IMG/VR virus record: IMGVR_UViG_3300003690_000042
Span: 1 to 29,424 of that record
Strand: one strand, 5' to 3'
Length of the DNA: 29,424 nt
DNA from: a virus
Shown piece after piece: positions 3,855 to 29,322 of the stretch. Position 1 is the stretch's first letter. Each line of letters starts with the position of its first letter. A program made the translations under genes and the position numbers. The notes under the pieces were generated by a model. That model did no database searches. It was given only the letters and a program-made list of their open reading frames with translations, and was not told the DNA's origin.

Positions 3855-3869
3855 AATCATTCTCCTTTA

Positions 3870-7500: not shown

Positions 7501-10500
7501 TCAGCAGACTTACCAGCCTCTCTCCCTGCAAGATTAGCTCTATCCTGTACTAATTTTACAAAGGATTTCTTACCACGCAATGCTAGTAATTCAGGCAAGT
7601 ACATGTTACGAGCTAGTTCTGATGGAGCTACACCAAATAGGTCTGCTACATCCTTGGGGATTAGTGGACGAAGTGGTCTACCAGTTAATCTCTGTGGAGA
7701 AACTAAACCTTCTATCTGTGCGCTCAGTTCATAGACTTGTGAACGTGTTTGAAGGAACTTATCCTCTACATTAACCCAAGGTCGTGACCGTTCAAAATAG
7801 AAATTATCCCATGTTTGATTACTCCACCCTCTAGTACTACCACCATTCTGGGATATAAATAGGTTCTCTAAATCTCTTTGGGCATTACGAGCATTTTTAG
7901 TAAAGGCTAATACTTCTAATTGATGGTGGAGTAGTTGGTCATACTGCTGTATTTGTATAGGAGTCATATCCCTTGTGTTAGCACTATCTTGCAACTTACT
8001 ACGCATGTCGTCTACTAATCTTCTAATATCATCCGCAGATTGGTTGACATGTGGAGTAAGTCGATTAGCCCAGAAGTTATCATAGAAGGTTTGCTTACCT
8101 ACTGGATTAACTATAGTCTCTCCATATATACGAGCTACATTAACAGCAGATGATATAGTATCTCCATATACCTCTATTACTTGAGCTACCGTATTCATTT
8201 TGAAATTTAGTTCAGCAGGTGTAGTAGGATTCCAATCAATTATCCCATCTACAAACGTAGCAAACCTTTCCCTAAACAATGCAGGAGATTCTAAATACCT
8301 CTGCATTATCTGTTCATGTAATACATTATCCACAAGGTCATTAATACCATGCGGGCCAGCAGACCATAATTCACCTGTATCTACTCTACGCATTATAATA
8401 TCAGCTACATCACCATAGATTTCAGTTAGTGGTTCCAGTAATTTACTAACTTCTGCTGCACGTACAGTGTTAGGAGAGAAGTCACGTACTAAATCTTGTA
8501 CGTGTTTAATATCACCAGTAAGTAATCTAGCTACTGCTTCATCCTTATATGCTGATACATGTTTATTATCTATTACTAATCCAGCATCAATCATAAGTTC
8601 TTCTATTAAATCGGTAGTAGCTGCAATAGCAGCAGGGTCAGCTTCTACTAGTAACTTCTTATACATACGTGACCAGTAGTTAGCTTTTTGTACACCACCA
8701 AATACAGTACCATAATCATAACCAGTAATAGTAGATAAAGGTTTACCACCGGGTAGTGCCTCTAACCACTTACCAGTCATTACTTTAGTAACCCAATTAC
8801 TTACATCTGCCTCTGCTGCATTACGTTCTTGGGATGTCATAAGTCTAGCATTACTAGGAGATAGACGCCGTAGTTGTTCTTCAGGAAAGTCTGCCTGTAT
8901 TAATACTCTAGCAGGCTCTAATGCATCCAACGGTACGTGCCCTCGTAGTCCATGTATCTGAGTATTAAGCCTTTTATATAGAAGGCGTTTACTACTCCAC
9001 ATAGGATTATTACCAGATAGCATAGTCTTAAGACCTGTCTCTAGAATATTAAAGAAGGCGTAAGCACCAAACAATAGATAGGCTCTAGCAAATGGAGTAC
9101 TAATAAATTTATCTATTAAACCTTGGAATACTACTCTAGTTACCCGGTCTAAGCCATCTAGACTGTGAGCAATAAACCCTTGCTGGAATCTTTTATTAGC
9201 TACTATACTATGTTGAGCCGCAAGGAAATCTCGTTTAGTACCATCCATAATAGACCGTAATATCTGAATAGTATCTTCACCAGCTAATTTTCTAATTGCA
9301 CGATTAGCTAATCCTTCTCTTATTCTAGTTATAAATGCAACAGAATTAGTTATATTTTCTGGTGTAGGAAATATATCTAGAGCACTTCTTAATAAAGCTG
9401 CTGATTCATTTATCTCTAAAAATCGTGTGGAACCAAAACCTTTAGTCAATGCCGCAATTCCATTAGCAGCATCTATGGCTTCTATAGTAACTTCTCGATT
9501 AATATTTAGAGTAATATAAAAGTTTGATAGGTCGTCAGCACTAATCTCTCGGTCACCAAGTAGAAATAGACCAGCACGATAGTCTGGATTTTGAGGGTCA
9601 TTCAATGCATTAGTAATAACGTCTGTTAGTATCATTCTAGTATCAGTAGGCTCAATACGTCGCAAAGTCTTTCCAGTAATATTCTCCAAGTATGCTCTAG
9701 TAGTATCAAACGCAGACATACTAAGAGTAAGTGCCCGTTGCTGTAATGTTCTAGGCATAGTAGTAATCCATACCTCTTTAGCCATTACAAACGGCATTTC
9801 CATAGCCAAAGTAAAACCACGTTCTACTGCACCAATAGCATTATAGGAAGATTTTCCTATTATTGGTAATGCCCTAAATGGTTTAGCATACCATCCAAAC
9901 CCCACATAAGTCAGAGGGTCAATAGCAGTATCTAGAAGAAATTTTTGTAGCCCATTAGTGTCCCAGTTTTCTCTAACATATCGTAGTGCTTCCCAATTAC
10001 TTAGTCCTTGCTCTCTAGCAGTTCCAAAAGATTCTCTTAGTGCCCGGTCTGAATCAGATTCACGCCCTGTATAACTTGAGACATAAGAGTTACCAATTAG
10101 TAGACCACCAGCCAAAGGATATATTAGTTTATTATTCCAGTACAGAAATGGTGCCATAGCAGCTACCATTGGTCGTGATGCCGCCTGTGCCCATAATGCG
10201 GCATCTATCATAGAATCTAATTCACCATTACCTAACTTGCTACCTTCGGCACGTATTATTGCCATACGTGCTTGTCTTACTCTAAATGTATCTATCTGTA
10301 CTTGTATATCTGGAGCTACATCTGACATCCTTGCATCTATTTCTACTTGGTCTAGTCCCTCCTCAGCTAGTAGTTCCATTAATTCCGCTTCTGTAACTCC
10401 AGGCGGTAGAATAAATTGGCTATTAATTCTAATACTATTCAGTATTTCATCAGTAGTCATTTGTTGTATATTAATACTATGGACTACTCTACCAGTAGGA

Positions 10501-11213: not shown

Positions 11214-12963
11214 TACGTCCTCCACCAACACCTAATCTAGCTTCTGCCATAGACTGTGACGGTATTACATCAGGAGCTTCTGCTCCATTAGAATTAGTCC
11301 CTAATCTATCTGCTACCGTAGGTTGTCCAGTAATTGATTTAGTAAGTTGTTGTGCCAAACTTTCAAATAGTCCTGCCTGGTCTACATTATCCGCTGCTCG
11401 GGCTTGTTGAGCTGCGGCTTCAAAGGCTTGAATTAATTGTACTGTACTATAACTAGGATGTAATTTAGCCTTCTCTGCATCTAGTAAAGCTAGAGCTTCA
11501 TTAACATTAGTAACTTCTGGTAGTAGTAAGTCCATTATCATTGATGTGGGAAGTTCAAACCTACTATTCAACTGCTTAGACATTGCAATACGACTAGACA
11601 AATCTCCTGGTATTTTAATAGCATACGAAGCATAGATACAAGTGTCTTTTAGTATTTCTATTACTTCATCTGGTATCTCTCCCCATGCTTCAGGACGTAG
11701 ATTAGGATTATTCAAATACGTATGATACCAACTATCAGTAACCTCTGATGCTACGTGCTGTGCTGCATTGTGAAATGGACTAATTAATTGTATTGCAGCT
11801 TCTGCTGCTTGTGTGATTATTGTACTACTAATCTCACCTAAGACACTACCAAATGTAACATCACTAAATCCACCACGTTGTTCTTGATTACGTAATGTAA
11901 ATAAAGCCTGTGATAGTTCTACTGGAATACCAGGCATCTGTATCATTTCAATAGAATCTTGTGGAGAGCCTCTAAACATTGCCCCACGTTTATACCATTC
12001 TTGTGGGCCAGAAATTATTGGTTGTCCAACTGACCTCTCAAATACACGAGGATTAGCAGTGTCTCTAATTAGTTGGAAATTAAATGACTGTAGCTTATTA
12101 AACGCACGATATATTGGTTCATTAGTAGCTAGTACACTCTGTCCCATAGTACTTGATAAATCTCTATCCTTATCATCAAATGATGGTATCCCTGCTACTG
12201 ACCCTGCAAGTATTGGAATAGTATCTATACCTTCTATTATAGTAGGCATTTTAATAATCATATTATCCATAACTACTGCATGAGCAATACCAGTTGGAAG
12301 TCGTTTCCACAAATGACCTTCTACTACTTTACCTGACAGCCTTCTTCCCGCAGGCAGTTCCCACCCAGGATTCTTAGAAATACTTTCCATTGCTTGAGCA
12401 GAAGATACTGACCTCTTACGGGCTAATCGTAGTAGACCTTCCGATGGATTGGAACTCCACTCTGGAAATATATGAGCCGGATTCCAATAATCTACACTAA
12501 CTACACCATTAGTATCCATTGCATAAGGTACACAATACCATCCAGTAGATACTAAAAATCCAATGAAGTTCCAGAACCAAGTTTCTTTACCACGCTTCTG
12601 ATTGTCATTATTAATCTTATCCCATAATGTATTAAAGTACTGCTGGATTAAATCCACATATGGACGTACTTCATTAGGAGTTACTGTACCCGTATTCATT
12701 GTTATCTTAATATTCAATGGTTTAGGTTGCAGTAGAAATACGGCCATGTTCCATGTAGTACGTGGGTCATTACCTACAAACGATTCCATGTTCTCTTGTT
12801 TTAATTCATCTACCATAGATAGTAGACTATACCAACGATTAAATGATTCCTGTCTACCACGATACATTCCCTGTAGGTCATTAATTTCAGTAATGATTTC
12901 ATTAGCAGGGCCAGATGTACCAGTAACAAATCCAGTAAGTCTATTAAGTCCTTGTTGTAACAT
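11194..12963 (-). CDS. Portal protein
   Basis: The dodecameric portal forms the DNA channel at one capsid vertex and docks the terminase. The position right after TerL (with one small gene between) and the length (589 aa) fit. The N-terminal half has WNMAVFLLQPKPLNIKI and ETWFWNFIGFLVSTGWYCVP, and the middle has YRAFNKLQSFNFQLIRDTAN followed by a mixed strand and helix region, as in portal wing and stem domains. A long C-terminal helical part contains AFEAAAQQARAADNVDQAGL. The longer frame starts at 12984 with no Shine-Dalgarno, whereas the ATG at 12963 (MLQQGLNRL) has GGAG 9 nt upstream, so I use 12963. It overlaps both the preceding small gene and the following giant gene by 20 nt, which points to tight translational coupling. 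Confidence 0.82.
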   Translation of the reverse strand: MLQQGLNRLTGFVTGTSGPANEIITEINDLQGMYRGRQESFNRWYSLLSMVDELKQENMESFVGNDPRTTWNMAVFLLQPKPLNIKITMNTGTVTPNEVRPYVDLIQQYFNTLWDKINNDNQKRGKETWFWNFIGFLVSTGWYCVPYAMDTNGVVSVDYWNPAHIFPEWSSNPSEGLLRLARKRSVSSAQAMESISKNPGWELPAGRRLSGKVVEGHLWKRLPTGIAHAVVMDNMIIKMPTIIEGIDTIPILAGSVAGIPSFDDKDRDLSSTMGQSVLATNEPIYRAFNKLQSFNFQLIRDTANPRVFERSVGQPIISGPQEWYKRGAMFRGSPQDSIEMIQMPGIPVELSQALFTLRNQEQRGGFSDVTFGSVLGEISSTIITQAAEAAIQLISPFHNAAQHVASEVTDSWYHTYLNNPNLRPEAWGEIPDEVIEILKDTCIYASYAIKIPGDLSSRIAMSKQLNSRFELPTSMIMDLLLPEVTNVNEALALLDAEKAKLHPSYSTVQLIQAFEAAAQQARAADNVDQAGLFESLAQQLTKSITGQPTVADRLGTNSNGAEAPDVIPSQSMAEARLGVGGGRNGASPV

Positions 12964-15238: not shown

Positions 15239-15829
15239 CTAGTGGTCAATCGTGTAAGGTGCGCTTTGTTCAGATTCCGTAATGCCGCTGTACGTCGAGT
15301 CTGTGCTCCCTTGGTTTTGCGTGCCATGCTTCCTCGCTACTAAAATCATTTCATCCCATCCAACGTCCGTATTAAACTCCTTAAACAAAGATTGCAATGC
15401 TGCGAATTGTTGTGGTGTATACAGTGGACGGATTTTAACCAAGTAACTACGCTCCTCTCTATTAAGGAAGTAGACTGGATTAACTGGGTCTTGTTCTCCA
15501 AGCTGCACTTTTTTAAGTAGTCTGTAGTCATAATCTAAAGCTAATTTGAAATTCCTAGTAAAGTCTAGTGTAATTACTTCCTTACTAAATTGCTTCTGTA
15601 GTTCTAGTAGATTAGTCTTTTCTATTTCAGCAAACGCAGTATCATTAGCCATCCATCTATATATTGTACTACGATTAATATTACCAGCTAGTTCACAGGC
15701 TTCGTCACGACCAAAGCCACAAAGTCTATAACTTAGATAATTACGTTTTTTATCATCATCCCAATCAAATCTCGGTAGTACAGAATCGGCTTGTGCTAAC
15801 GTATCAGTCGGAGTTATTTGTTGTGTCAT
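15239..15829 (-). CDS. Probable terminase small subunit with HTH domain, 196 aa
   Basis: Residues about 28-72 form a helix-turn-helix of the kind found in small terminases: YLSYRLCGFGRDEACELAG, then NRSTIYRWMANDTAFAEIE. The central part is helical and could drive ring formation. The C-terminal tail is Ser, Thr and Gly rich. As first gene of the late operon, three genes before the portal, it would recognise the packaging site and hand DNA to TerL. The ATG has no Shine-Dalgarno, and a near-consensus promoter sits so close that the transcript would begin at or next to the ATG. The next in-frame ATG lies in the HTH and would break it, so the start is well fixed. An alternative is a late transcription regulator. 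Confidence 0.7.
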   Translation of the reverse strand: MTQQITPTDTLAQADSVLPRFDWDDDKKRNYLSYRLCGFGRDEACELAGNINRSTIYRWMANDTAFAEIEKTNLLELQKQFSKEVITLDFTRNFKLALDYDYRLLKKVQLGEQDPVNPVYFLNREERSYLVKIRPLYTPQQFAALQSLFKEFNTDVGWDEMILVARKHGTQNQGSTDSTYSGITESEQSAPYTIDH

Positions 15830-15911: not shown

Positions 15912-15940
15912 TTGACATTCTCCATAACATGTTATATAAT
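15912..15940 (+). promoter_or_regulatory. Rightward consensus sigma-70 promoter
   Basis: TTGACA (15912-15917), a 17-bp spacer and TATAAT (15935-15940) match the consensus exactly. Transcription would start near 15947, giving a leader of about 118 nt before the 258-aa gene. That leader contains an imperfect inverted repeat (GTAATGTAAGTGTAATC near 15951 against GATTACATTAC near 16004), so it may fold. Confidence 0.85.
15924..15935. promoter_or_regulatory. Palindrome ATAACATGTTAT inside the rightward promoter
   Basis: An exact 12-bp palindrome lies in the spacer and touches the first base of the -10 box. A protein bound here would block RNA polymerase. Its sequence differs from the 16-bp palindrome at 15872, so a different regulator is likely if it is an operator at all. 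Confidence 0.35.
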
Positions 15941-17516: not shown

Positions 17517-18125
17517 CTAGTCAGCCACTACTTTACCTGCAGCCTTGAATCCATCCAGTGCAGCGGCTCTTGTCTTACTATCCTTACCGCCTACTTGTTG
17601 TGTAGGCTGGGGCACACTTCCCATTACTTCTTTCCATGCCTGGCTAACGGTATCAAACTGTTTTCCATCGACTGTGATTTTGTGGTTACGTGGGCCAGAC
17701 CTACCAGTCCCATTACCATTCGAGCCAAGCTTTTGCAGACCACCTAACGTAGTAGTGACCACAAACTTGCCGTCTGCTTTGCTCAGTCTGCAAACTAAAT
17801 CGCCAGCAGTTTGTAGATTCATGAATCCCGCTTCAACGGCTTTGGCGACGTGTTCACTGAATAGGTCACTAGCGTGGGTTTCCAGTGCAGTCCTACCGGC
17901 TGCTTCTTTCTTAGCCAGTTCGTCAGCAGCGGATTTTTCAGTGTCTACTCTGGTTTTAGCCTTACCTGCTATTTCAGATTGGATTTTATTAATGGCCTCT
18001 ACCATCAGCAGACCGCCTAACGCAACAGCATCTCCAAACTGTTTCTCGTACGTCAACCGGATTTCATCTGAGATTACTTCCAATCTAGTCTGCTTGATAG
18101 TGGTCTCGATTGCGGGCTGTGCCAT
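17517..18125 (-). CDS. Unknown helical protein, 202 aa, self-contained transcription unit
   Basis: Residues 1 to about 110 are helical and rich in Ala, Glu and Lys, with a likely coiled coil around IAGKAKTRVDTEKSAADELA. A Gly/Asn/Ser linker (about 135-145) follows, and then a small C-terminal domain beginning NHKITVDGKQFDTVSQAWKE, which looks like a compact strand-helix fold. I do not recognise the family. The ATG has GGTGAT 5 nt upstream, matching the 3' part of the Shine-Dalgarno consensus. The gene has its own near-consensus promoter and its own terminator, opposes its neighbours, and by eye is GC-richer, with fewer CTA, AGT and GTA codons than the rest of the phage. These are features of a moron gene or a recent acquisition. 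An antisense frame of similar length is judged a shadow. Confidence 0.7.
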   Translation of the reverse strand: MAQPAIETTIKQTRLEVISDEIRLTYEKQFGDAVALGGLLMVEAINKIQSEIAGKAKTRVDTEKSAADELAKKEAAGRTALETHASDLFSEHVAKAVEAGFMNLQTAGDLVCRLSKADGKFVVTTTLGGLQKLGSNGNGTGRSGPRNHKITVDGKQFDTVSQAWKEVMGSVPQPTQQVGGKDSKTRAAALDGFKAAGKVVAD

Positions 18126-18454: not shown

Positions 18455-18484
18455 TTGACAATCATGTATTCCATAGTATATAAT
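18455..18484 (+). promoter_or_regulatory. Main promoter of the right-arm operon
   Basis: TTGACA (18455-18460), an 18-bp spacer and TATAAT (18479-18484) match the consensus boxes exactly. Transcription would begin near 18491, about 54 nt before the first micro-gene, and no strong terminator is seen before the end of the window. Confidence 0.8.
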
Positions 18485-18883: not shown

Positions 18884-19258
18884 ATGGTACTAGCAACAGA
18901 GACAAGGAACGAAATAAAGAATTCAGTAGTAGCTATCTTTGATTCACTAGAACTAGAGGACTTGCAAGACATACAGATTATACTACGCAAAGTAATGAGT
19001 ATTAAGGGACAGCAACAAGGCTTGCATATAAAAATTGGTAGTCAAGTACACTGGCAACAGAACCGTAATAAAGTAATGACGGGTGTTGTTACTAAGGTCA
19101 ACAAGACTAGTGTAAATGTAGATACTACTCAAGGCCCATGGCGAGTACATCTATCGGCTATTAATAGTGGGGTATTAAATTCTATAGCTAAACCTGATTG
19201 GCGTAAGCAAAGGGATAATGATACACTAGAAGATTGGAATAAAGTAATCAATCGTTAG
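18884..19258 (+). CDS. Protein with SH3/KOW-like C-terminal domain, 124 aa
   Basis: Residues 1 to about 45 are helical (LEDLQDIQIILRKVM). Residues about 50-100 have the pattern of a small SH3-like barrel: KIGSQVHWQQNRNK, then GVVTKVNKTSVNVDT and GPWRVHLSAI. This order (a GD.V strand, a turn with a basic residue, GTV.KVNK..V.V, then a W.V strand) recurs in small nucleic-acid-associated domains. The ATG has AGGGGTAAATAGTA upstream. Its place just before the AAA+/VWA pair suggests shared expression and perhaps a partner or adaptor role, which is inference. No catalytic residues are apparent. Confidence 0.65.
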   Translation: MVLATETRNEIKNSVVAIFDSLELEDLQDIQIILRKVMSIKGQQQGLHIKIGSQVHWQQNRNKVMTGVVTKVNKTSVNVDTTQGPWRVHLSAINSGVLNSIAKPDWRKQRDNDTLEDWNKVINR

Positions 19259-19357: not shown

Positions 19358-20464
19358 ATGTCTAAAGAACGTCTACTAGCAATGGAAGCCGAACTAAATA
19401 CCCGGTACCTAGACCGTAGTGATGTATGTCGTGGACTATTACTAGCGGTACTATCTAGTAACCACATAGAACTACTAGGTGCTCCCGGTACGGCCAAGTC
19501 TGCACTAACCTACGATTTCATGGACTATCTAATAGATGATGCTGGTAGTGACAAGAAGTTTAGTTGGTTGTTCACTAAGTTTACTACAGTGGATGAGGTA
19601 ATGGGGCCGGTTTCTATTCAAGGTATGAAGGACGATAGATACACTAGGATAGTAACTAACAAGCTTCCGGAAGCACGCTTCGCATACTTGGATGAAATAT
19701 ACAAGGCCAATAGTCCTCTACTTAATAGTCTACTCTCCATACTACAAGAGGGTATCTTTTATAATAACGGTGGTGCTACTCACTGCCCACTACAAATGTG
19801 TATTGGTAGTAGTAATGAATTACCTGACGAGGATGAAGGACTATCCGCACTAAGGGACAGGTATCTACTACGGTATCAAGTCCAGTATCTACAAGATGCT
19901 ACCACATTTAGTCAACTACTCACACTAGACCATCCTGTTAAGGTAGTATCTAAACTAAGCATGGTTGATTTGGATGCTGATATAGAGGCAGTCAAGGCTC
20001 TAAAGATTACTGATGATACAGTGCGTAGTATTACACTAGTGTGGGAACGGCTACGGGAAATGGGAATATTTCCTAGTGACCGTAGATTCAAGGCTATGAT
20101 TAAAGTAATGGCCGCTGAATCATGGCTAATGGGTGCTACTGAGATAGTACCTGATAGTATCATAGTGGGTGAACACATACTATGGGACAAGCCCGAGCAG
20201 TTTAGAACTGTAAAGCAAATCATTAGAGCATCAGTAAACCCGTCACTATCAGAGGCGCAGGAATTCTTAACAGCCGCACAAGAAGGACTAGCTACTGTTA
20301 AAGATGGCTCTAATAGTGAGGAAATAACTCAAGTGGCTAAGTCTATTAGAGTAATGCTACAAGAGTGTGAACATCTTAGTCAGAGTACAGAAGTAACTAA
20401 GATAACAGCATCTATTAAGATTATTGAGAATCAAGTAGTTAATATGATGCTAGGTAGTTCATAG
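19358..20464 (+). CDS. MoxR-family AAA+ ATPase, RavA-like
   Basis: The 368-aa protein has a full AAA+ core: Walker A GAPGTAKS (41-48), Walker B RFAYLDEIYKAN (107-118), sensor 1 Asn in GSSNELP (151-157), Arg finger candidates in ALRDRYLLRY (164-173), and a sensor 2-region SDRRFKAMIKVMAAES in the helical lid. The LDEI.KANSPLLNSLLSILQE segment and the SDRR motif are typical of MoxR proteins, and of RavA in particular. MoxR ATPases work as hexameric remodelling or maturation factors with a VWA-domain partner, and the next gene encodes such a partner. AGGGGTAAGTATACA precedes the ATG. E. coli RavA is longer because of an extra C-terminal LARA domain, which is absent here. The target in the infected cell is unknown. 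Confidence 0.88.
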   Translation: MSKERLLAMEAELNTRYLDRSDVCRGLLLAVLSSNHIELLGAPGTAKSALTYDFMDYLIDDAGSDKKFSWLFTKFTTVDEVMGPVSIQGMKDDRYTRIVTNKLPEARFAYLDEIYKANSPLLNSLLSILQEGIFYNNGGATHCPLQMCIGSSNELPDEDEGLSALRDRYLLRYQVQYLQDATTFSQLLTLDHPVKVVSKLSMVDLDADIEAVKALKITDDTVRSITLVWERLREMGIFPSDRRFKAMIKVMAAESWLMGATEIVPDSIIVGEHILWDKPEQFRTVKQIIRASVNPSLSEAQEFLTAAQEGLATVKDGSNSEEITQVAKSIRVMLQECEHLSQSTEVTKITASIKIIENQVVNMMLGSS

Positions 20465-20503
20465 TAGGCAATATAAATCCTATCTAATTTGAAAGGATGT
20501 AGT

Positions 20504-21973
20504 ATGCGAACAATAATTAAACCGGATGAACTAGTACATCAAACCACTAAGCTAGACACCATGTTCTATGGTAGTGTAGTAAACAACAGCAAGAATATAC
20601 AAGAGGTACTAGCTAGACGAGTAGACAAGATAACAGGTGCCGATATATTCCAGGCTTTGTATCAGTGGGAACCCCATCTTAAAGATAGTAGTCCAGATAC
20701 CGCCTTGAGTAGTTGGCTAGACAAGACTATTAAAACGCAGAGTTTCAAGGAACTACGTGCTACTACAGTAGGGGATAGGAATCTAGCGGCAGGTGCTTCT
20801 ATTACTCTATTCCGAGAGTTAATGCGTAGTAAAGAATCAATATTCAAGGCAGTACTACAAACTAGACATAGTAAAGACCAACTAGAAGCCATGCCACTAG
20901 ATGAAACCACGCTTAGTAACTTAGAGGCTAAGATTAGTGAGGCCCAACAAAAGTTAGCCGATATGATAGATGGTGATAGTACTACAGCAGAGAATCCGCA
21001 ATCACCTGATAAAATGGGTGGTCTATCACCAGATTCAAGTGCTATAACTACTGCTATTAGTCAGACCAATGCTACTATGACTATGGCCTCTGAACTAGCA
21101 GCCTTTGATGCCGCCACTGGCGGTGGTAGTACACTATCCAATGATGGTAGTGATAAGGTACTGGATACACTAGACTCTGGACTAATGGAGAAAATAACAG
21201 CACAAGATACGCTACGTAAAGTGTTCCAAATAGCAGGTAGAATGAGGGTTATACTACAGCAGGCTAAGTCACGTAAACCACAACGTGCCCCAACTCCAGT
21301 CAGTATAACAGTAGGCAGTGACTTATCTAATGTAATTAGTAGTGAACTTGGTACACTATCTGATGTAGTAACAGAGGATAAATTCTACGCTAAGTATCTA
21401 GATAAATCGTTACTGATGTACGACCACAAGAGTAAGGTTAATGAGGGACTAGGCCCGTTCATATGTCTAATGGATGTATCAGGCTCTATGAGTGGTGTTC
21501 CACTACAGACAGCCCAAGCCTTGTATGTTGCGCTTAGTCGTATGGCAGTAGAGAAGCAACGTAAGGTATGTTTCATACCATTTGCATCTAATCCAGGTAA
21601 GAGCCAAGAGATTAGTAACAGTAAAGAATTAGTGGGTAGTATTACTAGTAACTATCGTGGTGTGGGTAGTGGTACTAATTTCAAGTCAGCACTAGAACAA
21701 GGACTAGACTATCTCGCTACTCAAGCGAAATTCAAGTTAGCCGATATTATACTAATCACTGATGGTGATGCTTATCTAGATGATAGATGGATAACATGGT
21801 TCACTGAACAGAAGCTTAAGTATGGATTTAGATTAGTGGGATTAAATGTAGGTAGTGGTCGTAGACATTGGCAAGAGTCCCAATTAAAGATGTTTGATGC
21901 TACTGCATACATGGAACGAGGACAACTAAGTAAATTAGATTGGATGCACAACCTTGCAGATAGTTTAGTATAG
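20504..21973 (+). CDS. VWA-domain protein, ViaA-like partner of the MoxR ATPase
   Basis: The start at 20504 (MRTIIKPDEL) has AAAGGA 6 nt upstream; a TTG start 15 nt earlier is less likely. The 489-aa protein has a helical N-terminal region, a low-complexity Asp/Ser/Thr linker (about 155-225), then the ViaA-type signature GSDLSNVISSELGTL (271-285), a YLDKSLLMYD segment, and a C-terminal VWA domain. The metal-ion site is complete: DVSGS (Asp324, Ser326, Ser328), Thr391 in GSGTNF and Asp420 in ITDGD. ViaA-type proteins bind RavA-type ATPases and modulate them. The order ATPase then VWA and the 39-nt gap match the cellular operon. A CobT-like reading was considered, but the SEL.TL signature favours ViaA. 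Confidence 0.85.
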   Translation: MRTIIKPDELVHQTTKLDTMFYGSVVNNSKNIQEVLARRVDKITGADIFQALYQWEPHLKDSSPDTALSSWLDKTIKTQSFKELRATTVGDRNLAAGASITLFRELMRSKESIFKAVLQTRHSKDQLEAMPLDETTLSNLEAKISEAQQKLADMIDGDSTTAENPQSPDKMGGLSPDSSAITTAISQTNATMTMASELAAFDAATGGGSTLSNDGSDKVLDTLDSGLMEKITAQDTLRKVFQIAGRMRVILQQAKSRKPQRAPTPVSITVGSDLSNVISSELGTLSDVVTEDKFYAKYLDKSLLMYDHKSKVNEGLGPFICLMDVSGSMSGVPLQTAQALYVALSRMAVEKQRKVCFIPFASNPGKSQEISNSKELVGSITSNYRGVGSGTNFKSALEQGLDYLATQAKFKLADIILITDGDAYLDDRWITWFTEQKLKYGFRLVGLNVGSGRRHWQESQLKMFDATAYMERGQLSKLDWMHNLADSLV

Positions 21974-21987
21974 AAGGAGATTAGATT

Positions 21988-22326
21988 ATGGTAAACAAAA
22001 ATAGGATTAAACCGTATCCTGAAACACATCAGCAAGGGACTATTACTATAGAGAAAGCACTACCTATGGGTGTAACAGTAGGGGATTTTGGTATTCAAAT
22101 TGCTAGTGATGGTAGAGTTTGGATTTGTGTAGATGGTGAGGCTATTATTAGATTCAAGTCTGGTAGTAGTTGGGGCAACCGTACTGTACCTAGTGAGACA
22201 GTAGAAGAATCAGTAGAAAACTGGTACTTAAATACCATCAGCCAAAAGTCAGATAGGACTAAAGCAGACATGGAATTGTTGTGGCCTTACACCAAATGGA
22301 CAGTTAAGGACAAGAGTGGTAGCTAA
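21988..22326 (+). CDS. Unknown protein, 112 aa, downstream of the ATPase/VWA pair
   Basis: AAGGAG with an 8-nt spacer precedes the ATG. The sequence is basic at the N-terminus (MVNKNRIKPYPETHQ), then shows strand-like segments (TVGDFGIQIASDGRVWICVD, EAIIRF) and a helical C-terminus ending WTVKDKSGS. It has one Cys, no membrane segment and no motif I recognise. It lies 14 nt after the VWA gene, so it may be co-translated and functionally linked to that pair; this is inference from spacing alone. Confidence 0.65.
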   Translation: MVNKNRIKPYPETHQQGTITIEKALPMGVTVGDFGIQIASDGRVWICVDGEAIIRFKSGSSWGNRTVPSETVEESVENWYLNTISQKSDRTKADMELLWPYTKWTVKDKSGS

Positions 22327-22345: not shown

Positions 22346-22603
22346 ATGGTACAAAATACATCAACTACTGGAGACTCTACAGTAACTATACTAGTTAAAC
22401 CTGGCGTAGTTAATACTATTAACAAGTATATCAATGCACAATCTACACAAGTTTGGGATAGTGGAGGTAATCACTACTACCGACTACCAGTAATATCACT
22501 ACATTCATGCAGTAAGTTTGTTACTTTTGACTGCCCTTGTACACTATGTGGATTCCCACAAGATTCCTCACTACATAAGATGGTACTAGTATCACACGTA
22601 TAA
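22346..22603 (+). CDS. Unknown protein, 85 aa, with C-terminal CxCxxC
   Basis: AGGTAGGTAA lies upstream of the ATG. The N-terminal part has a strand and helix (VTILVKPGVVNTINKYINAQ) and an aromatic HYYRLPVISLHSCSKF stretch. Near the C-terminus CPCTLCG gives a tight cluster of cysteines, and with Cys in LHSCSK and two His (LHKM, SHV) it could bind zinc. No family is recognised. Confidence 0.6.
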   Translation: MVQNTSTTGDSTVTILVKPGVVNTINKYINAQSTQVWDSGGNHYYRLPVISLHSCSKFVTFDCPCTLCGFPQDSSLHKMVLVSHV

Positions 22604-22628: not shown

Positions 22629-22916
22629 ATGACTACTAAAAAGTTTAGCATGGCGGAGATACGGCGTAGAGTACAGCATGAGTCAGCAGAATCTAGTGAT
22701 GATGTAGTGAAAACTGCGGCAATGTATAGAATAGAACGTAAGTATAAAAAAGATATACGTTGGCTATTAAATCCTGACCGTGGTAGTGGTAGAACACTAG
22801 CTAAGAAATACGCCGTAACAGAGAGTGCTATTAGTATATGGCGTAAGAAGTTAGGGATAGTAGTAGAGAATAGTAGTCACTATGAGAAGGGACACTATCC
22901 TACTAGGTGGTTATGA
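22629..22916 (+). CDS. HTH DNA-binding protein, 95 aa
   Basis: Residues about 55-78 (GRTLAKKYAVTESAISIWRK) form a helix-turn-helix: a LAKKYAVT first helix and turn, then ESAISIWRKKLG as recognition helix. The N-terminus is a charged helix (AEIRRRVQHE). The protein is basic overall. Its TGA overlaps the next ATG (ATGA), so translation of the RepA-like ATPase is coupled to it. It is the only clear small transcription-regulator-like protein in the window besides the TerS candidate, and so is the best guess for binding one of the palindromes at 15872, 15924 or 18329. An origin-binding role is the alternative given its neighbour. Confidence 0.7.
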   Translation: MTTKKFSMAEIRRRVQHESAESSDDVVKTAAMYRIERKYKKDIRWLLNPDRGSGRTLAKKYAVTESAISIWRKKLGIVVENSSHYEKGHYPTRWL

Positions 22917-23749
22917 AGCCTGAATCACTAGAAGAATTTTTAGCATGGCAAGCACCACACAGACCAGAACTAATACAAGGTAGACTACTAGTACCTGGCA
23001 GTGTAATGTTTTTATATGGTGAGTATAGTACGTGGAAGTCCTGGTTAGCTATGTCATTAGCACATGCACTAGCGGATGGTAGTCGGTGGCTACATCTAAA
23101 GACTACACCTACCAAAGTACTACTCATTAATGCAGAACTACCTAAAGCAGAGTATCAATCTAGATGGAAGGCTTACCTTGCAAAGCATACTATTAAACAT
23201 CCAGAGAATTTAGTAGTAGACAACGACACTGAAATGGCACTGGATAGTTATGTTGGTATTAACAACTACATCCAGTGGCTACAGTTTCTAGCAGTAGAGG
23301 GGGTGATAATAGATAATCTATATGCGGCCATGGCAGGAGACTTAACTAAGAATACTGATGCTAATGTACTAATACGTAACATGAATAGACTACGAGCTAT
23401 AGGTATATTCGTTGCAATGGTGCATCATTCTAGACAGGAGCAGTATAGTACGACTGGAAAAGTAAACCAACGAGCATACGAAATGTTTGGTAGTTCCTTT
23501 CTTACTAACTGGGCTGATACTATACTAGAAACAAGGGGAATATATGAATCAGGTTATTCCGACGCAATCACGCTCACCGCCCAAAAGCACAGGCTTAGTC
23601 CACTAAAGCCAATGACCACCAGTTACAACTTCAATAGAAATAAATTAGAATTTGAATTAATAGTGAGGACAATAGACCATGACTCAGCAACAAGCAATAC
23701 CAATCGACCCCGCAGTAGCAGCAACCATGCTGCAAGGTATGACGCATGA
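22913..23749 (+). CDS. RepA/DnaB-type RecA-fold ATPase, probable helicase, 278 aa
   Basis: Walker A is GEYSTWKS (36-43) and Walker B is GVIIDNLYAAM (130-140). The order LINAE (about 71-75) and FVAMVHHSR (about 168-176) matches the H1a, H2 and H3 motifs of RepA-type hexameric helicases (AAA_25-like). The start is the ATG at 22913, which overlaps the preceding stop as ATGA; a GTG 6 nt earlier is possible. The 3' end overlaps the next gene by 71 nt, and the last 20 or so residues are a Ser/Asn/Arg-rich tail likely to be disordered. With the polymerase, nucleases and RecA-fold ATPase downstream it would supply the unwinding step in replication. Lack of a primase domain means a separate primase is needed. 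Confidence 0.8.
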   Translation: MKPESLEEFLAWQAPHRPELIQGRLLVPGSVMFLYGEYSTWKSWLAMSLAHALADGSRWLHLKTTPTKVLLINAELPKAEYQSRWKAYLAKHTIKHPENLVVDNDTEMALDSYVGINNYIQWLQFLAVEGVIIDNLYAAMAGDLTKNTDANVLIRNMNRLRAIGIFVAMVHHSRQEQYSTTGKVNQRAYEMFGSSFLTNWADTILETRGIYESGYSDAITLTAQKHRLSPLKPMTTSYNFNRNKLEFELIVRTIDHDSATSNTNRPRSSSNHAARYDA

Positions 23750-24509
23750 GACTAGTGAAGGTGGTAGTCCACTACGTCATTACTTTGGTAAGTTAGAAGC
23801 TATACCTATGTTCCAGGGTACACCACAAAGTAACAGGGATGGTAGCGTAAGAAATTCAATGGAATTACACTATCAGTTTAGTGAACTAAAAGTTATGGCA
23901 TCGGTAGTACCTTACGAGCATCCTACTTATGTACATAAAATATACTTAGGTGACATGAGCCGACCTCCAGGCCAGCGTACTCTTACTGGTATATGGTTCC
24001 ATAGTATAGGAGCTATACTAGGGGAGCAGAGCAAGCCGTTAGATGCAGTAGGTAAAGTACTAGAAATTATGTGGACATCAGGCCATGAAAGGACTAGACT
24101 AAACGAGACTAGTGGACAGTGGGAGCAGTACGAATCGGAGGCGTTTGAAGTTATTAGTATAGATGGAGTCAAGGCTCCCAATGCTAATGCTGTACCACCT
24201 GTTCCTACTATACCACCCGTACCACCTATGTTGCCTGTTGCTGGTGCATCTGCACCGTCACCTATTGAACCATCAGTGTATGTTAATACTCCTGTAGTGG
24301 ATATTATGACTAGACTAGCGCAAGTAGCTGATGGTTGTAATCATCCTGCATGGATGCAACAAGTAGTAGCTCTCCCTGAAATGAAGGAAGTTGCTAACGA
24401 ACCGTTGTATACATCTATGATGAGTGATAATGGAGCGGCTGTTATACAAGCTCTAATGGCTGCTGGACATGTAGTTATCGAAACAGATGGTACATATCAT
24501 ACTGCGTAA
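23679..24509 (+). CDS. Possible ssDNA-binding or replication accessory protein, 276 aa
   Basis: Residues about 30-165 have many alternating strands (MELHYQFSELKVMASVVPYE, YVHKIYLGDM), a Gly-Ile-Trp-Phe turn and a segment ending EAFEVISIDG, which would fit an OB-like fold. A Pro-rich linker follows (about 172-200: repeated PPVP), then a small helical C-terminal domain (TRLAQVADGCNHPAWMQQVV), perhaps winged-helix-like. GAGGA lies 9 nt before the ATG, which is inside the preceding gene. Its position next to the RepA-like ATPase is where several phages carry an ssDNA-binding protein. I cannot show sequence homology to a known SSB, and the usual acidic C-terminal tip is absent. Confidence 0.5.
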   Translation: MTQQQAIPIDPAVAATMLQGMTHETSEGGSPLRHYFGKLEAIPMFQGTPQSNRDGSVRNSMELHYQFSELKVMASVVPYEHPTYVHKIYLGDMSRPPGQRTLTGIWFHSIGAILGEQSKPLDAVGKVLEIMWTSGHERTRLNETSGQWEQYESEAFEVISIDGVKAPNANAVPPVPTIPPVPPMLPVAGASAPSPIEPSVYVNTPVVDIMTRLAQVADGCNHPAWMQQVVALPEMKEVANEPLYTSMMSDNGAAVIQALMAAGHVVIETDGTYHTA

Positions 24510-24518
24510 GTAGTATAG

Positions 24519-24540
24519 GCTAGGTAGTTATATACCTAGC
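24519..24540. other. Hairpin GCTAGGTA/TACCTAGC
   Basis: A perfect 8-bp stem with a 6-nt loop starts 10 nt after the stop of the 276-aa gene, in a 128-nt gap. The following TTGCTGGAGTTTAG has only a weak T run, so it is at best a partial terminator. A second small hairpin (GGGT-TT-ACCC) lies about 25 nt further on. Confidence 0.35.
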
Positions 24541-24637
24541 TTGCTGGAGTTTAGTTTAGTGGGTTTACCCCTGCTCATTAGATTAAACTTTGGCAAGGTG
24601 GGTATATAAAATACTCATACATTATAGAGGGGTAATT

Positions 24638-25456
24638 ATGAAACAAGTAACTAAACATACAGGGAAAGGCGGTAGTAGATTCTATCTAATAGAAGGTAGT
24701 GAAGTACGGCATCCTAATGTCACAAGTATTACTAATACATTAGACAAGCCCGCATTAATAGGATGGGCAGAAGGTATGGGTATTATAGAGACTGCTAATC
24801 AGCTTACTAAAGAATACCATGAACAAGGTAGTGAATCCTTTAGTGAGTTGATGCATAATTTACATTCTTGGATTAACAATACAAAGCAAAAACCTACTAC
24901 TAAAAATGCTCCACCATTTATAAGTGAGATAGTAGGTATATCACATCGTAAGAAAGAAGCGGCGGCTGATATAGGTACTCAAACACATGAGATAATAGAA
25001 CGTATACTCAAGGGTGAGATAGGGATAGTAGTACCCGACTACTTAAAGAGTACTATTGATTCCTTTGCCGCTTGGTATAGTCAGGCTGGGATTGATTCAG
25101 TACTACACAGTGAACTACCTGTAGTGTCAGAGAAGTATGGATACGGTGGTACTATTGATATAGTATTCAAGATGCAAGATGGTACTACATTAATCTGTGA
25201 CTGGAAAACTAGTAATGGTTTGTACAAAGAGACTTCACTACAGATAGCGGCATATCGACAGGCTTACATTGAAATGGTAGACCATAAACCATCTGATAGT
25301 ATTATCAATGCTGGTGCTGTTAGACTAGGTAAGGATTACCCTGCCTTTGAGTACCGTGCAGTGACACAGCTAGATGAATGTCTTACTGGATTCTTGTCTT
25401 GCATGGGTATACGTAGATGGATAGCAGATATGAAGGGGACACAATGGAACAGATAG
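24638..25456 (+). CDS. PD-(D/E)XK nuclease, RecB/Cas4-like, 272 aa
   Basis: Conserved elements are visible in order: an early His in DIGTQTHEIIER (His117), the GTIDIV strand with Asp174, the catalytic ICDWKTS (Asp188, Lys190), and the QxxxY motif in SLQIAAYRQAY (Gln202, Tyr206). This is the layout of RecB-type exonucleases, including phage and Cas4-like forms. No Cys cluster for an iron-sulphur site is seen, so it is not a typical Cas4. The start at 24638 has AGGGGTAATT upstream; a TTG at 24590 would add 16 residues. Placed between an ATPase and recombination proteins, it would process DNA ends for recombination or degrade host DNA. Confidence 0.85.
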   Translation: MKQVTKHTGKGGSRFYLIEGSEVRHPNVTSITNTLDKPALIGWAEGMGIIETANQLTKEYHEQGSESFSELMHNLHSWINNTKQKPTTKNAPPFISEIVGISHRKKEAAADIGTQTHEIIERILKGEIGIVVPDYLKSTIDSFAAWYSQAGIDSVLHSELPVVSEKYGYGGTIDIVFKMQDGTTLICDWKTSNGLYKETSLQIAAYRQAYIEMVDHKPSDSIINAGAVRLGKDYPAFEYRAVTQLDECLTGFLSCMGIRRWIADMKGTQWNR

Positions 25457-25617
25457 ACCGTGATGCAATACAAATTAGTATAGCTAAGAGTCTAGTAAGT
25501 ATAGCTGAGTCGCTAGATAAACTTTTACAAGGACAGTTTAGACTAGTAATACCCAATCAACAACAGTCTACTACAGAGACTGAACGACTCTTGCCTAAAG
25601 ACCAACGGACAGCATGA
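25444..25617 (+). CDS. Small helical protein, 57 aa
   Basis: AAGGGG lies upstream of the ATG at 25444, which overlaps the nuclease gene by 13 nt; its TGA overlaps the next ATG. The first 30 residues form an amphipathic helix with regular Ile and Leu spacing (AIQISIAKSLVSIAESLDKL), and the C-terminus is polar and basic. It may be a small partner of the nuclease. Function unknown. Confidence 0.55.
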   Translation: MEQIDRDAIQISIAKSLVSIAESLDKLLQGQFRLVIPNQQQSTTETERLLPKDQRTA

Positions 25618-25781
25618 GTACTAAATACAGAAATCGCAATGACACATACGTAGAGCGTTGTATACTATGTACTAGACGTTCCATTGGATGTTGTTTATAT
25701 TGTTCTAAACCTCTATGTGATAAGCACATGAAAAGTTTAGGCACAACCCATGTTTGTTTTAAGAATAAGTATAAAGATTAG
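25614..25781 (+). CDS. AN1/B-box-like zinc-finger micro-protein, 55 aa
   Basis: The ATG overlaps the preceding stop (ATGA), and the stop lies 10 nt before the next ATG, so the gene fits the operon exactly. After a basic N-terminus (MSTKYRNRND) it carries CILC, then CCLYC, then CDKH and finally HVC. In spacing terms this is CxxC-x7-CxxC-x4-CxxH-x7-HxC. It closely follows the AN1-type zinc-finger plan (CxxC, CxxC-like, x4, CxxH, H-x-C), differing in some loop lengths. Two zinc ions would stabilise nearly the whole protein. AN1-like fingers are best known from eukaryotic ubiquitin-linked proteins but exist in prokaryotes. The function here is unknown; a protein-binding or nucleic-acid-binding adaptor is a reasonable guess. 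Confidence 0.7.
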   Translation: MSTKYRNRNDTYVERCILCTRRSIGCCLYCSKPLCDKHMKSLGTTHVCFKNKYKD

Positions 25782-25791
25782 GGGTAAGGAA

Positions 25792-26640
25792 ATGATTTAC
25801 TTAATATGGGGTGACGTATACACTAGAAAATCTACTATTGCACTATCTGTACCTGGCCGTAAATTTGTATTCGATTTTGAAATGGGAGTACATAGAGCGG
25901 AAGTACAGTATCCTGGCATAGAGAATGAGAAGTGGAATATTAAACCAGACTTAAATTCTCTAACACATTTTAAGGGCGACCGTGTACTAGGTAAGAAAGA
26001 AAACTGGCATGAACTTACAGCTAAGTACATAGAAGTAATACAACGGGATGATATAGATGTAATCATCTTCGATACGGCTAAGGTACTGTGGGCTACATGT
26101 CATGGTAGTGTACTGCAAGAGAAACAAGACGCTCAAGTAGATGCAGTACTAGCCAAGGCTCCTAATGCAGTACTTGATGTAGTAGAAGCTAACATAGATT
26201 GGCGTAAACAACTAACCGAAATAGAATATACTCTACCTAATGAGCGCATGGAGAATCTGATTAACTTAGCCAATAACTTTAACAAGGATTTAGTACTAAT
26301 CAATCATCAACGTCCAATGTATGGGCCTCAGTTAATGAATGGTAAGATAGAGAGTGCACCAATAGCAGGTAAGTTTGAATTAGATGGCTGGAGACACACA
26401 TCTAAATTATCTGACTGGATATTTAATACTAGTAAAGAGAATATAGCTATAGAAAACGACCCTGGTAATACTAGTATTAAGTTTAGTGCTATGGTAGAGA
26501 AGTGCCCATTGGGAGCTACTGTAGTAGGACAGACCATGACTAATTTAACATTGCCAATGGTACTAAATCTAGCCAAGGCTATGACAGCAGTATTGCCCAT
26601 TCCAGAATTACTACCTACTACAGCAGATATAGATAATTAA
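25792..26640 (+). CDS. Sak4-like RecA-fold ATPase, probable recombinase, 282 aa
   Basis: The protein begins directly with a nucleotide-binding strand: Walker A GDVYTRKST (7-15, with Arg in place of the usual second Gly), and Walker B DVIIFDTAKVLW (89-100). A later LVLINHQRPMYG segment (about 170-181) resembles the H3/Q region of RecA-fold proteins. Short RecA-core ATPases of this type, often called Sak4 or AAA_24, promote single-strand annealing or strand exchange in phages and often sit near SSB and exonuclease genes, as here. AGGGGTAAGGAA precedes the ATG; a longer frame from 25750 would overlap the zinc-finger gene and lacks a ribosome site. Confidence 0.78.
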   Translation: MIYLIWGDVYTRKSTIALSVPGRKFVFDFEMGVHRAEVQYPGIENEKWNIKPDLNSLTHFKGDRVLGKKENWHELTAKYIEVIQRDDIDVIIFDTAKVLWATCHGSVLQEKQDAQVDAVLAKAPNAVLDVVEANIDWRKQLTEIEYTLPNERMENLINLANNFNKDLVLINHQRPMYGPQLMNGKIESAPIAGKFELDGWRHTSKLSDWIFNTSKENIAIENDPGNTSIKFSAMVEKCPLGATVVGQTMTNLTLPMVLNLAKAMTAVLPIPELLPTTADIDN

Positions 26641-26657
26641 TAAGTGTAGTTGATATT

Positions 26658-27359
26658 ATGTTAATAGATGAGTATGAGCCTCTTAATATTGAGGCACTAA
26701 TAACACAGGCTAGTCCATATACGTCAAGAGGACAACTAAACAAGACAGGATTCTCTGATTATCTATGGTATACTCCTGATAACAAACCCGAACAAGCAGA
26801 GCGTAAGCAGGTTAGTGAGATACTAGGTTCTATTGAGAGAGTGGAGTATCAGATAGGAGCAGAGATAGAGAAAGTACCTGACTTGTATAATCAATACCTC
26901 ATAGTAGAAGGACTAGCTGAATCGGTTATGGGTGGTATACAAACATGGATACTAAGTCCCAATGGTAAGTTCTGGAAGAAATCTAAATTCTTTAAGACAC
27001 CAATGAATAGATATGAATCATGGTTAGTAGCTATGTACCGAGCAGGTGTGATAATATGGCGTACTACATCATGGCAACATACCGCACACGCACTAGTGTA
27101 TCTTGAGAAGTCTGCATTAGTACCTAGTACTGCACTACAAAGACACTTAAAAGTACACGACTTCCAACCTAATCCTTATATTAGACAGCTAATGGGTGTG
27201 CCTGATGTTGGAGTTAAATTAGCAGAACAGTTGTTAGAAATGTTTCGCACTCCGTATAGAATTAGTAATCAATCACCAGAGGCATTAGCTGAACTGCCAG
27301 GTATTGGACTACCTAGAGCTAGAGCTATACTAATTGGTATGGGACGAGAGGATATATAA
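26658..27359 (+). CDS. ERCC4 (XPF/Mus81-type) nuclease with helix-hairpin-helix repeats, 233 aa
   Basis: The N-terminal part carries the ERCC4 signature: SDYLW (33-37, the GDY site), AERKQVSEIL (47-56, the ERKxxxD site with Glu in place of the last Asp) and YLIVEG (80-85). The C-terminal third has two helix-hairpin-helix elements: LMGVPDVGVKLAEQLLEMF (178-196) and LAELPGIGLPRARAIL (210-225), which bind DNA without sequence preference. XPF/Mus81 family enzymes cut branched DNA such as flaps and Holliday junction intermediates. In this operon it would resolve replication or recombination structures. No Shine-Dalgarno is evident, and coupling to the upstream gene 17 nt away is likely. Its stop overlaps the next start (TAATG). 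Confidence 0.85.
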   Translation: MLIDEYEPLNIEALITQASPYTSRGQLNKTGFSDYLWYTPDNKPEQAERKQVSEILGSIERVEYQIGAEIEKVPDLYNQYLIVEGLAESVMGGIQTWILSPNGKFWKKSKFFKTPMNRYESWLVAMYRAGVIIWRTTSWQHTAHALVYLEKSALVPSTALQRHLKVHDFQPNPYIRQLMGVPDVGVKLAEQLLEMFRTPYRISNQSPEALAELPGIGLPRARAILIGMGREDI

Positions 27360-27643
27360 TGACACAAATTAAATACGTTAATAAGACACTACTAATGCAA
27401 ATCAATACCCAAGCTATACGTGAGGGTGCCAATCGTACAATACAAACTATGACAGTAGAACTACTTGATAGTGATACATTTTTCAACGTATCTCAAACTA
27501 TGTTACACAATGATGGACTAGAAGTACGATGTAAAATTATCTTGGATTGTAAGGGTAGCTTTGGATGGATAGATATGCCACTAGAAACATTTAATTCACT
27601 GCCAGTACTTGAGATAGATGATACTCCGGACACGACTACATGA
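27359..27643 (+). CDS. Unknown protein, 94 aa, between ERCC4 nuclease and polymerase
   Basis: It overlaps the upstream stop as TAATG and the polymerase start as ATGA, so all three are probably translated together. Alternating strands (TIQTMTVELLDSDTFFNVSQ, LEVRCKIILDCKGSFGWIDM) suggest a small beta-rich fold, with an acidic C-terminus. I see no catalytic motif. A polymerase or nuclease accessory role is possible from position only. Confidence 0.6.
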   Translation: MTQIKYVNKTLLMQINTQAIREGANRTIQTMTVELLDSDTFFNVSQTMLHNDGLEVRCKIILDCKGSFGWIDMPLETFNSLPVLEIDDTPDTTT

Positions 27644-29322
27644 GAGCCTACTGGGGTAGATTAACTAAAGGAAACTACGTAGATGAAACGGCTGAAACTA
27701 AGATAGCTATTGAACATGCTTACGATAATCTATTTACTAATCCTCCGCCATATGTAGCACTAGATACTGAAACACCAAGTCTAAAGAATCAACGAGTAAT
27801 GGGTATTGGTATTGCTACACCACAAGATGATAACTTTTACTTCGACTTCACAGAAGCCACCATACCTTGGCATCTAATTATGCCTAGTCCGGTACGTAAG
27901 ATATGGCACAATGCTACATTTGATTTAAGTAAGGAAGTACTAGGTAGATATAGTGTAGATATAGATAACATAGAAGATACAGCTATCATGACCCGTATGC
28001 TTAATATAGATGTAACACTAGAACTAGCCGCACTACATACCAATGCACGTACCCAATCTGTATCTAATCTACTTAAAGAATATAATGTACGCAGTATGGC
28101 TGACCTACCTTGGCTAGAGGTAGCACTAAAATGTATTAACGATGTACGTGTAACACTACAATTATATGAGAAGTATAGACATATAGTTAATCAAGAGAAC
28201 TATGAAGTAGAACGTAAGATAACATCTATGTTGCTACATATGTCACATCGTGGTATACAGTTAGATAAAGAACTAGTCAGTGCTATAGAATCTGAAATGG
28301 CTAGTGGAGCTTCACACTATAGTCGTGTACTACCATTTAATTATAATAGTCCAGTACAAGTAGCTAGGGCATTAGGAGAAGCTAAGATATTTCTTCCTCA
28401 AGTACGTGACCATAAAACTAAAATGATTAAGCACCCTACAGGTAGAGCAGTACTAGAAACTTTTGACCACATACTACCAATGACTATACTAGAGGCTCGT
28501 AAGTATACGAAGCTACATAGTGTAGTCAAAGGATTAGTAGGATTAGACCGTGCATACTCGCACTTCCATCTTGACTCTGCTACTAGACGCATCACATCTG
28601 AGAATATACAGATGCATAATCTACCTACTGCACATAGAGAGACAGACATACATCCTAAAGCAGGCCCAGTACGTAGGATACTAGTACCAGATAGTGGACT
28701 ATGGACACGTTTTGATTTATCACAACTAGAACTACGGGTATTAGATAGGTACTGTGGCGACCCTGTAATGCATAAGGCATTGATTACTCCCAAGGGTGCA
28801 GGGCCAGACATACATAGTACTACACAATTAGCACTGAATCTTGGTAGTCGTACTATAGCTAAGAACTTTAACTTTGGTAGCATCTATGGTGGTGATATAC
28901 CAATACTATCATCGTTCACTGGTATTAAGGATAGAGATTTACTACGTGGGTATCAACAACAGTATTTCTCTACATACCCAGTCATGAAAAACTGGATAGA
29001 TAATCAAAGGTATAGAGGACTACGTGATGGATTTGTTACTACACTATATGGACAGGAGTTATCACTAGACATAGCCATGCGTAGTGGTGAACGTCATGCT
29101 GGTAACTGTGCAATTAACTACCCAATTCAAGGTAGTGCAACAGAGATATTCAAAAGGATTATCATAGCCATACTAGAAACTGTACCAATGGATAAATTTG
29201 TATTACAAGTACACGATGAACAGTTACTAGAAGGCCCACATGCATTGAGAGCTGACCTATTAGCATGGATAGCAGGGTTCTGGACACCATTGGAGACTAG
29301 TATAATATCGAGGTGGCAATGA
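27640..29322 (+). CDS. polA: Family A DNA polymerase with 3'-5' exonuclease
   Basis: The 560-aa protein lacks the N-terminal 5' nuclease of bacterial Pol I, as usual for phages. Exonuclease motifs: ALDTETPS (Asp42, Glu44), HNATFDL (Asp95) and CINDVRVTLQLYEKY (Asp168), so proofreading is likely intact. Polymerase motif A is FDLSQLELRVL (Asp359), motif B is RTIAKNFNFGSIYG (Arg404, Lys408, Phe412, Tyr416), and motif C is QVHDEQ (His525, Asp526, Glu527). Phe412 aligns with E. coli residue 762. The thumb region between exonuclease and motif A is shorter than in E. coli. The start overlaps the 94-aa gene by 4 nt. It is the replicative polymerase of the phage. Confidence 0.95.
   Translation: MRAYWGRLTKGNYVDETAETKIAIEHAYDNLFTNPPPYVALDTETPSLKNQRVMGIGIATPQDDNFYFDFTEATIPWHLIMPSPVRKIWHNATFDLSKEVLGRYSVDIDNIEDTAIMTRMLNIDVTLELAALHTNARTQSVSNLLKEYNVRSMADLPWLEVALKCINDVRVTLQLYEKYRHIVNQENYEVERKITSMLLHMSHRGIQLDKELVSAIESEMASGASHYSRVLPFNYNSPVQVARALGEAKIFLPQVRDHKTKMIKHPTGRAVLETFDHILPMTILEARKYTKLHSVVKGLVGLDRAYSHFHLDSATRRITSENIQMHNLPTAHRETDIHPKAGPVRRILVPDSGLWTRFDLSQLELRVLDRYCGDPVMHKALITPKGAGPDIHSTTQLALNLGSRTIAKNFNFGSIYGGDIPILSSFTGIKDRDLLRGYQQQYFSTYPVMKNWIDNQRYRGLRDGFVTTLYGQELSLDIAMRSGERHAGNCAINYPIQGSATEIFKRIIIAILETVPMDKFVLQVHDEQLLEGPHALRADLLAWIAGFWTPLETSIISRWQ

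Follow-up and report, generated by a model that had tools for sequence, protein, structure and literature searches.

Pairs of a MoxR-type AAA+ ATPase and a VWA protein are widespread, and few of their clients have been established. The locus described here, at which a virus encodes such a pair, raises the question of which complex the two proteins would act upon. The window, that is, the whole 29,424-base stretch that was analysed, is virus record IMGVR_UViG_3300003690_000042, which is classed as linear and is probably a fragment of a larger genome; its source is a poorly known bacterial virus. Among the 54 mechanically called ORFs of this contig, those encoding the MoxR and VWA proteins are backed by strong family matches and are therefore taken as real genes rather than chance frames. 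A first-pass annotation, made from the sequence alone, had described them as a RavA-ViaA-like pair in an early phage operon. The reading favoured here, at a probability of roughly 0.5, is that they form an early, LARA-less MoxR-VWA remodeller that acts on an intracellular nucleic acid–processing or takeover complex of phage or host and not on the virion.

The MoxR gene (19358-20464, + strand) begins with ATG and encodes a LARA-less protein of 368 aa that matches phrog_19600 (E = 3.1e-66) and the Pfam models bpMoxR (7.5e-42), AAA_5 (4.6e-18), and AAA_lid_8 (9.9e-10). As the first-pass annotation had stated, all of its nucleotide motifs are intact. These are Walker A (GAPGTAKS, residues 41-48, 19478-19501), the Walker B acidic pair D112-E113 (LDEI; 19691-19696), sensor-1 N153, arginine finger R168, and sensor-2 SDRR (residues 240-243, 20075-20086), all encoded on the + strand. 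Each is invariant or nearly so across the alignments; the Walker B pair is invariant there, as is sensor-2 in the phage-type alignment. The features by which the MoxR AAA+ family is recognised, namely a motif-complete core, a MoxR-type lid, and a linked VWA gene, all occur together at this locus. RavA is the sole solved structure matched by the MoxR sequence (E = 2e-40).

The VWA gene follows immediately on the same strand. It was called at 20489-21973 (+) from a TTG start (494 aa), and ATG 20504 is the more likely start (489 aa) because AAAGGA lies 6-7 nt upstream of it; the gap behind the MoxR gene is 24 bp, or 39 bp when counted from ATG 20504. The order MoxR then VWA, in adjacent genes on one strand, is that of ravA-viaA, as had been claimed. 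The encoded adaptor matches Pfam VWA_2 (3.6e-7) and carries a full MIDAS (residue numbers from the TTG start), with the DxSxS residues D329, S331, and S333 at 21473-21487, T396 at 21674, and D425 at 21761, all on the + strand. These residues are invariant or more than 90% conserved in 58 homologues, and E286 is invariant. The SEL.TL signature noted earlier together with the metal site proved to be a portion of a family-wide pre-VWA motif, G.DL.RLLP.EL..L, that is common to ViaA; the alignment to the ViaA profile covers profile columns 218-487 (E = 2.3e-32). In the AlphaFold model (mean pLDDT 81), a helical N-terminal region precedes a C-terminal VWA domain, and in the PDB the model resembles VWA domains, that of the NorQD MoxR complex's VWA subunit among them (E = 1.5e-4).

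That the pair works like RavA-ViaA is well supported. By analogy with RavA-ViaA, CbbQO, and NorQD, the MoxR ring is likely to remodel a complex that the VWA protein presents through its MIDAS. Orthology to RavA-ViaA is a separate matter and is not supported as stated. RavA and ViaA are the nearest named cellular families for the two proteins, and the E. coli and Salmonella systems share with the contig pair the motif-complete AAA+ core, the gene order, the ViaA pre-VWA motif, and the MIDAS. However, identity amounts to approximately 30% with RavA and 19% with ViaA, and both proteins fall far below the NCBIfam equivalog cut-offs, at 158 bits versus 681 for RavA (23%) and 65.5 bits versus 500 for ViaA (13%). 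Moreover, neither LARA_dom nor ATPase_RavA_C was found on the contig at E ≤ 1, whereas the positive control, Salmonella RavA, yielded both (3.2e-39 and 2.8e-21, respectively). The earlier observation that LARA is missing is thereby confirmed, and it supports the accompanying suggestion that the pair probably has another client.

The phylogeny bears on the same question. The first MoxR tree contained very long rows; it was rebuilt without them, and a concatenated MoxR+VWA tree was then made from 49 pairs, including five RavA-ViaA reference pairs. In the concatenated tree, the references split off with 100/99 support and the contig pair lies on the other side, within a branch of 41 phage-type and cellular pairs (98/97 support), where its companions are LARA-less pairs of phage, prophage, and bacterial origin. 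Closest by path are DUF6744-bearing phages (L008, L009, L059, and L183). The contig pair is a long branch (1.6-1.9) without a firm sister, and the AU test for a clade uniting it with RavA gave p = 0.10 on the concatenated data and p = 0.55 on MoxR alone, neither of which rejects such a clade. The AU values, the gene order, and the pre-VWA motif are compatible with a true RavA-ViaA homologue pair that lost LARA and targets lysine decarboxylase or enzymes of host respiration (fumarate reductase, NADH dehydrogenase I), but the low scores, the absent C-terminal domains, and the position in the free tree make that very unlikely. A RavA that lost LARA is also not the simplest story, since many LARA-less pairs exist in phages and bacteria. 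The RavA-ViaA-like label is therefore apt for the nearest named families, the gene order, and the pre-VWA motif; it does not extend to scores anywhere near the family cut-offs, and the free tree, with the caution that the AU values impose, speaks against membership of the RavA-ViaA clade.

Viral relatives show how constant the pairing is. Scans of viral contigs seeded with the single MoxR, VWA, DNA polymerase, or AAA_25 sequence of the contig returned no relatives, and those of the MoxR and VWA proteins were found only with alignment-based searches. Profile-guided scans of IMG/VR yielded a sample of 56 non-redundant viral loci, in every one of which both genes lie on one strand, with VWA downstream in 55 and a MoxR-VWA gap of at most 300 bp in 44. 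Viral MoxR proteins are LARA-less in length throughout this set, mostly 365-480 aa. A chance pairing can be dismissed given recurrence in 56/56 loci. The distances of the two proteins also correlate (mirror r = 0.63; shuffled maximum 0.30, with 0/2000 permutations as high), and the contig pair's own row does so weakly (rho = 0.23, p = 0.11). The first-pass annotation had named partners occurring apart and without correlation as the pattern that would speak against a module; what the viral loci of this sample show is the opposite. By these sequence comparisons, MoxR-VWA is a widespread viral module with near-obligate pairing.

Taken alone, the contig pair adds a further, divergent member to a group whose viral representatives were already known. 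A closely linked MoxR-VWA pair was noted earlier in Bacillus phage 0305phi8-36 (orf66/63; PMC2147016), and an AAA ATPase adjoining a vWA-MIDAS protein was noted in haloarchaeal tailed viruses (PMC7911831). Among the latter, Hardycor1 differs from the contig in its archaeal host and longer vWA protein (711 aa); HVTV-1 likewise has an archaeal host, and no MoxR or VWA gene was recognised among those tested around its gene gp25. The pair of Moorella phage MTATph1 (CDS0115/0114) is adjacent on one strand, LARA-less, and of the same length as that of the contig; unlike the contig, it has DUF6744 just upstream, and its identity to the contig proteins is 33% and 23%. In Aphanizomenon phage CL131 (gp147/146), the genes are again adjacent on one strand, and they differ from those of the contig in being followed by DnaN.

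The surprising part of this module lies in the relatives. Neighbourhoods of the viral MoxR-VWA loci are heterogeneous, and when neighbours were clustered, one family alone recurred in most loci: Pfam DUF6744 (PF20529). It occurs within the fetched locus in 39/56 viral loci, and another five carry it outside that locus on the same contig, so that approximately 80% of the 56 contigs encode it. With phages and bacterial genomes taken together, the linkage is seen at L009:10541-11494, L008:10650-11615, L168:6491-7642, and about 40 other loci. A search seeded with DUF6744, which is independent of the MoxR search, found a MoxR gene in 8/8 viral loci, three of them new; in one (L189), MoxR lies 7 kb off, at the locus edge. 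MoxR also stands beside DUF6744 in 6/6 Paenibacillaceae-family genomes with an above-cut-off match, whereas DUF6744 occurred in 0/14 control genomes. The bacterial DUF6744-MoxR-VWA loci are probably prophages. In addition, gp25 of HVTV-1 is a DUF6744 homologue. The link between DUF6744 and viral MoxR-VWA pairs is new here, with no mention of the family found in a limited paper collection, and it provides function by association for an unannotated Pfam family. The AlphaFold model of DUF6744 is confident (pLDDT 94); a fold search against the PDB gave nothing below E = 0.001, and good matches were only to uncharacterised viral proteins.

DUF6744 was not found on the 29.4 kb contig, a probable fragment, and profile comparison ruled out a hidden copy in its 276-, 282-, and 200-aa ORFs. 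Either DUF6744 sits off the contig or the contig pair works without it. A well-supported viral clade lacks the family (L025, L027, L030, L034, L037, L050, L051, and L055 in the concatenated tree, with L017 and L047 added in the rebuilt MoxR tree), so the third gene is usual rather than obligatory. PolA (9/43), PD-(D/E)XK (9/43), and AAA_24 (8/43) genes occur near modules with DUF6744 and near 0/18 of those without it, and the contig has all three. We tentatively propose, with somewhat less than even confidence, a three-part phage machine of MoxR, VWA, and DUF6744 that is early or replicative, in which DUF6744 would take the place of LARA, and of the third component in cellular ternary systems, as client specifier and of which the contig would carry a two-part or split version.

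The DUF6744-less clade has companions of its own, all named by eye. In 10 loci, a reverse-transcriptase-like gene is found downstream; in 6, MoxR is preceded by a 190-aa gene; and portal-like and RNA-polymerase-like genes occupy the opposite strand.

The layout of the contig bears on where the client would be found. A leftward (− strand) block, running from approximately 15.8 kb to 0.7 kb, holds the virion genes, among them a small terminase match (15239-15829, −; phrog_4044), the major head protein (2823-3860, −; phrog_212), and between them a single 2242-aa ORF (4503-11231, −) with no PHROG match. The divergent rightward (+ strand) block starts at about 15.9 kb and reaches 29.3 kb; replication and recombination genes are found in it, as is the MoxR-VWA pair, with short intergenic gaps at either side. 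The remainder of this block (22907-29322, +) encodes an AAA_25 ATPase/helicase (starting at 22907), a 276-aa protein (23679), a PD-(D/E)XK exonuclease (24590; phrog_298, 3.7e-29), an AAA_24 ATPase (25750), an ERCC4/HHH protein (26658), and a PolA-type DNA polymerase (27640; phrog_17, 1.1e-60). Ahead of the pair's operon, approximately 400 bp 5ʹ of its first gene, is a perfect sigma-70 promoter consensus (TTGACA-N18-TATAAT, 12/12; 18455-18484, +). A second lies at 15912-15940 (+), and these two are the only perfect matches on the contig, against 0.01 expected from order-2 Markov simulations. The shared strand with the replication genes and the upstream consensus bear out the earlier description of a phage-encoded pair in an early-type operon, and the promoter consensus supports transcription of that operon by the host polymerase early in infection.

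Sites matching sigma-70 at 11/12 positions face the opposite way (15864-15836 and 18212-18183, −), roughly back-to-back with the perfect + sites. The paired + and − promoters bracket 15.9-18.4 kb, between the virion and early blocks. Within this divergent region, downstream of the near-perfect − strand promoter, is a 202-aa ORF (17517-18125, −), which a less convincing 200-aa ORF overlaps on the + strand.

Because the pair sits with replication genes and is divergent from the virion block, an intracellular client is favoured over a virion client, although the heterogeneous neighbours in relatives limit this argument from position. A role as virion-assembly chaperone, in which the pair would remodel or mature tail or head proteins, is the reading with viral precedent. 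In the archaeal bicaudavirus ATV, the MoxR ATPase p618 is part of the virion; the VWA protein p892 binds and stimulates it, and the two act on the extracellular tail; this virion/tail factor is the only experimentally studied viral pair that was found (reviewed in PMC4124505). Virion assembly was also proposed for the MoxR-vWA pairs that group 2.2 jumbo phages encode (Iyer et al. 2021; PMC7824862), and the 2242-aa gene in the contig's virion block could need such help. Like the contig pair, the ATV and SMV1 systems combine a MoxR ATPase with a VWA partner, but their proteins are much longer and very distant in sequence, the SMV1-type ATPase lying on a branch of 4.9. Furthermore, the contig pair belongs to the early-type block with the replication genes, which diverges from that of the small terminase and head protein; its VWA protein has no fused N-terminal metallopeptidase; and most of the neighbouring genes sampled in relatives either are uncharacterised or serve DNA metabolism. 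A virion client is accordingly judged unlikely, if still worth weighing.

Early expression would also suit counter-defence, with a defence complex of the host as the target to be dismantled. Alternatively, the phage might carry the pair as a conflict system akin to the MoxR-vWA ternary systems (Kaur et al. 2020; PMC7159879). Those systems have a MoxR-vWA core, and the bpMoxR model matched by the contig protein takes its name from their MoxR-vWA-beta-propeller form. The name is undiagnostic, however, as the model matches RavA itself and every relative tested. In Pfam scans, no VMAP, iSTAND, FtsH, beta-propeller, or effector domain adjoins the contig pair, and PADLOC returned no match to it. The constancy of pairing and order across phages would, in addition, be unusual for a typical fast-turning gene of this kind. 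Defence-related functions are for these reasons considered improbable.

CbbQO and NorQD are MoxR-VWA systems that activate their enzymes, and the viral pair might mature a metalloenzyme in the same manner, for example, a phage ribonucleotide reductase. Ribonucleotide reductase genes lie near DUF6744 in MTATph1 and HVTV-1, and the authors of the 0305phi8-36 study named its pair a metalloprotein chaperonin (PMC2147016). Among all loci searched, the enzyme is near the module in just those two, on which ground this reading was set aside, and the contig encodes no ribonucleotide reductase; we regard it as extremely unlikely.

The favoured reading, an early remodeller with an intracellular client, can be set out as follows. 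The operon would be expressed early from the host sigma-70 promoter, alongside the replication and recombination genes. The MoxR protein would assemble into an ATP-driven AAA+ ring on which the VWA protein docks, with the MIDAS holding the client, and ATP hydrolysis would pull apart or activate a specific protein complex. That complex would most probably be a nucleic acid–processing or takeover complex of phage or host within the infected cell. In most relatives, DUF6744 is part of the module, presumably as client or client-adaptor. A virus with few genes and a recurrent third protein offers a tractable system for finding the client, and such viruses could show how VWA adaptors pass substrates to MoxR rings.

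Several small genes, which the first-pass annotation had put forward as possible parts of the same module, flank the pair. The rightward operon's first gene (18884-19258, +) encodes a 124-aa protein whose C-terminal half is weakly SH3/KOW-like, with a weak, below-cut-off match to Pfam DUF2187 (E = 0.003); it has no relatives in the phage collection or in any fetched MoxR-VWA locus. Relatives of the three proteins encoded downstream, of 112 aa (21988-22326, +; 14 bp after the VWA gene), 85 aa (22346-22603, +), and 95 aa (22629-22916, +), are also absent from all fetched loci. The 95-aa protein is a possible helix-turn-helix protein (weak BrkDBD match, E = 0.037), and its gene has a weak PADLOC homing-endonuclease match (E = 0.008). 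In one gut phage contig (L003:2514-7704), DnaN-like, MoxR, SSB-like, and VWA genes stand in a row, with the SSB-like gene between the two partners.
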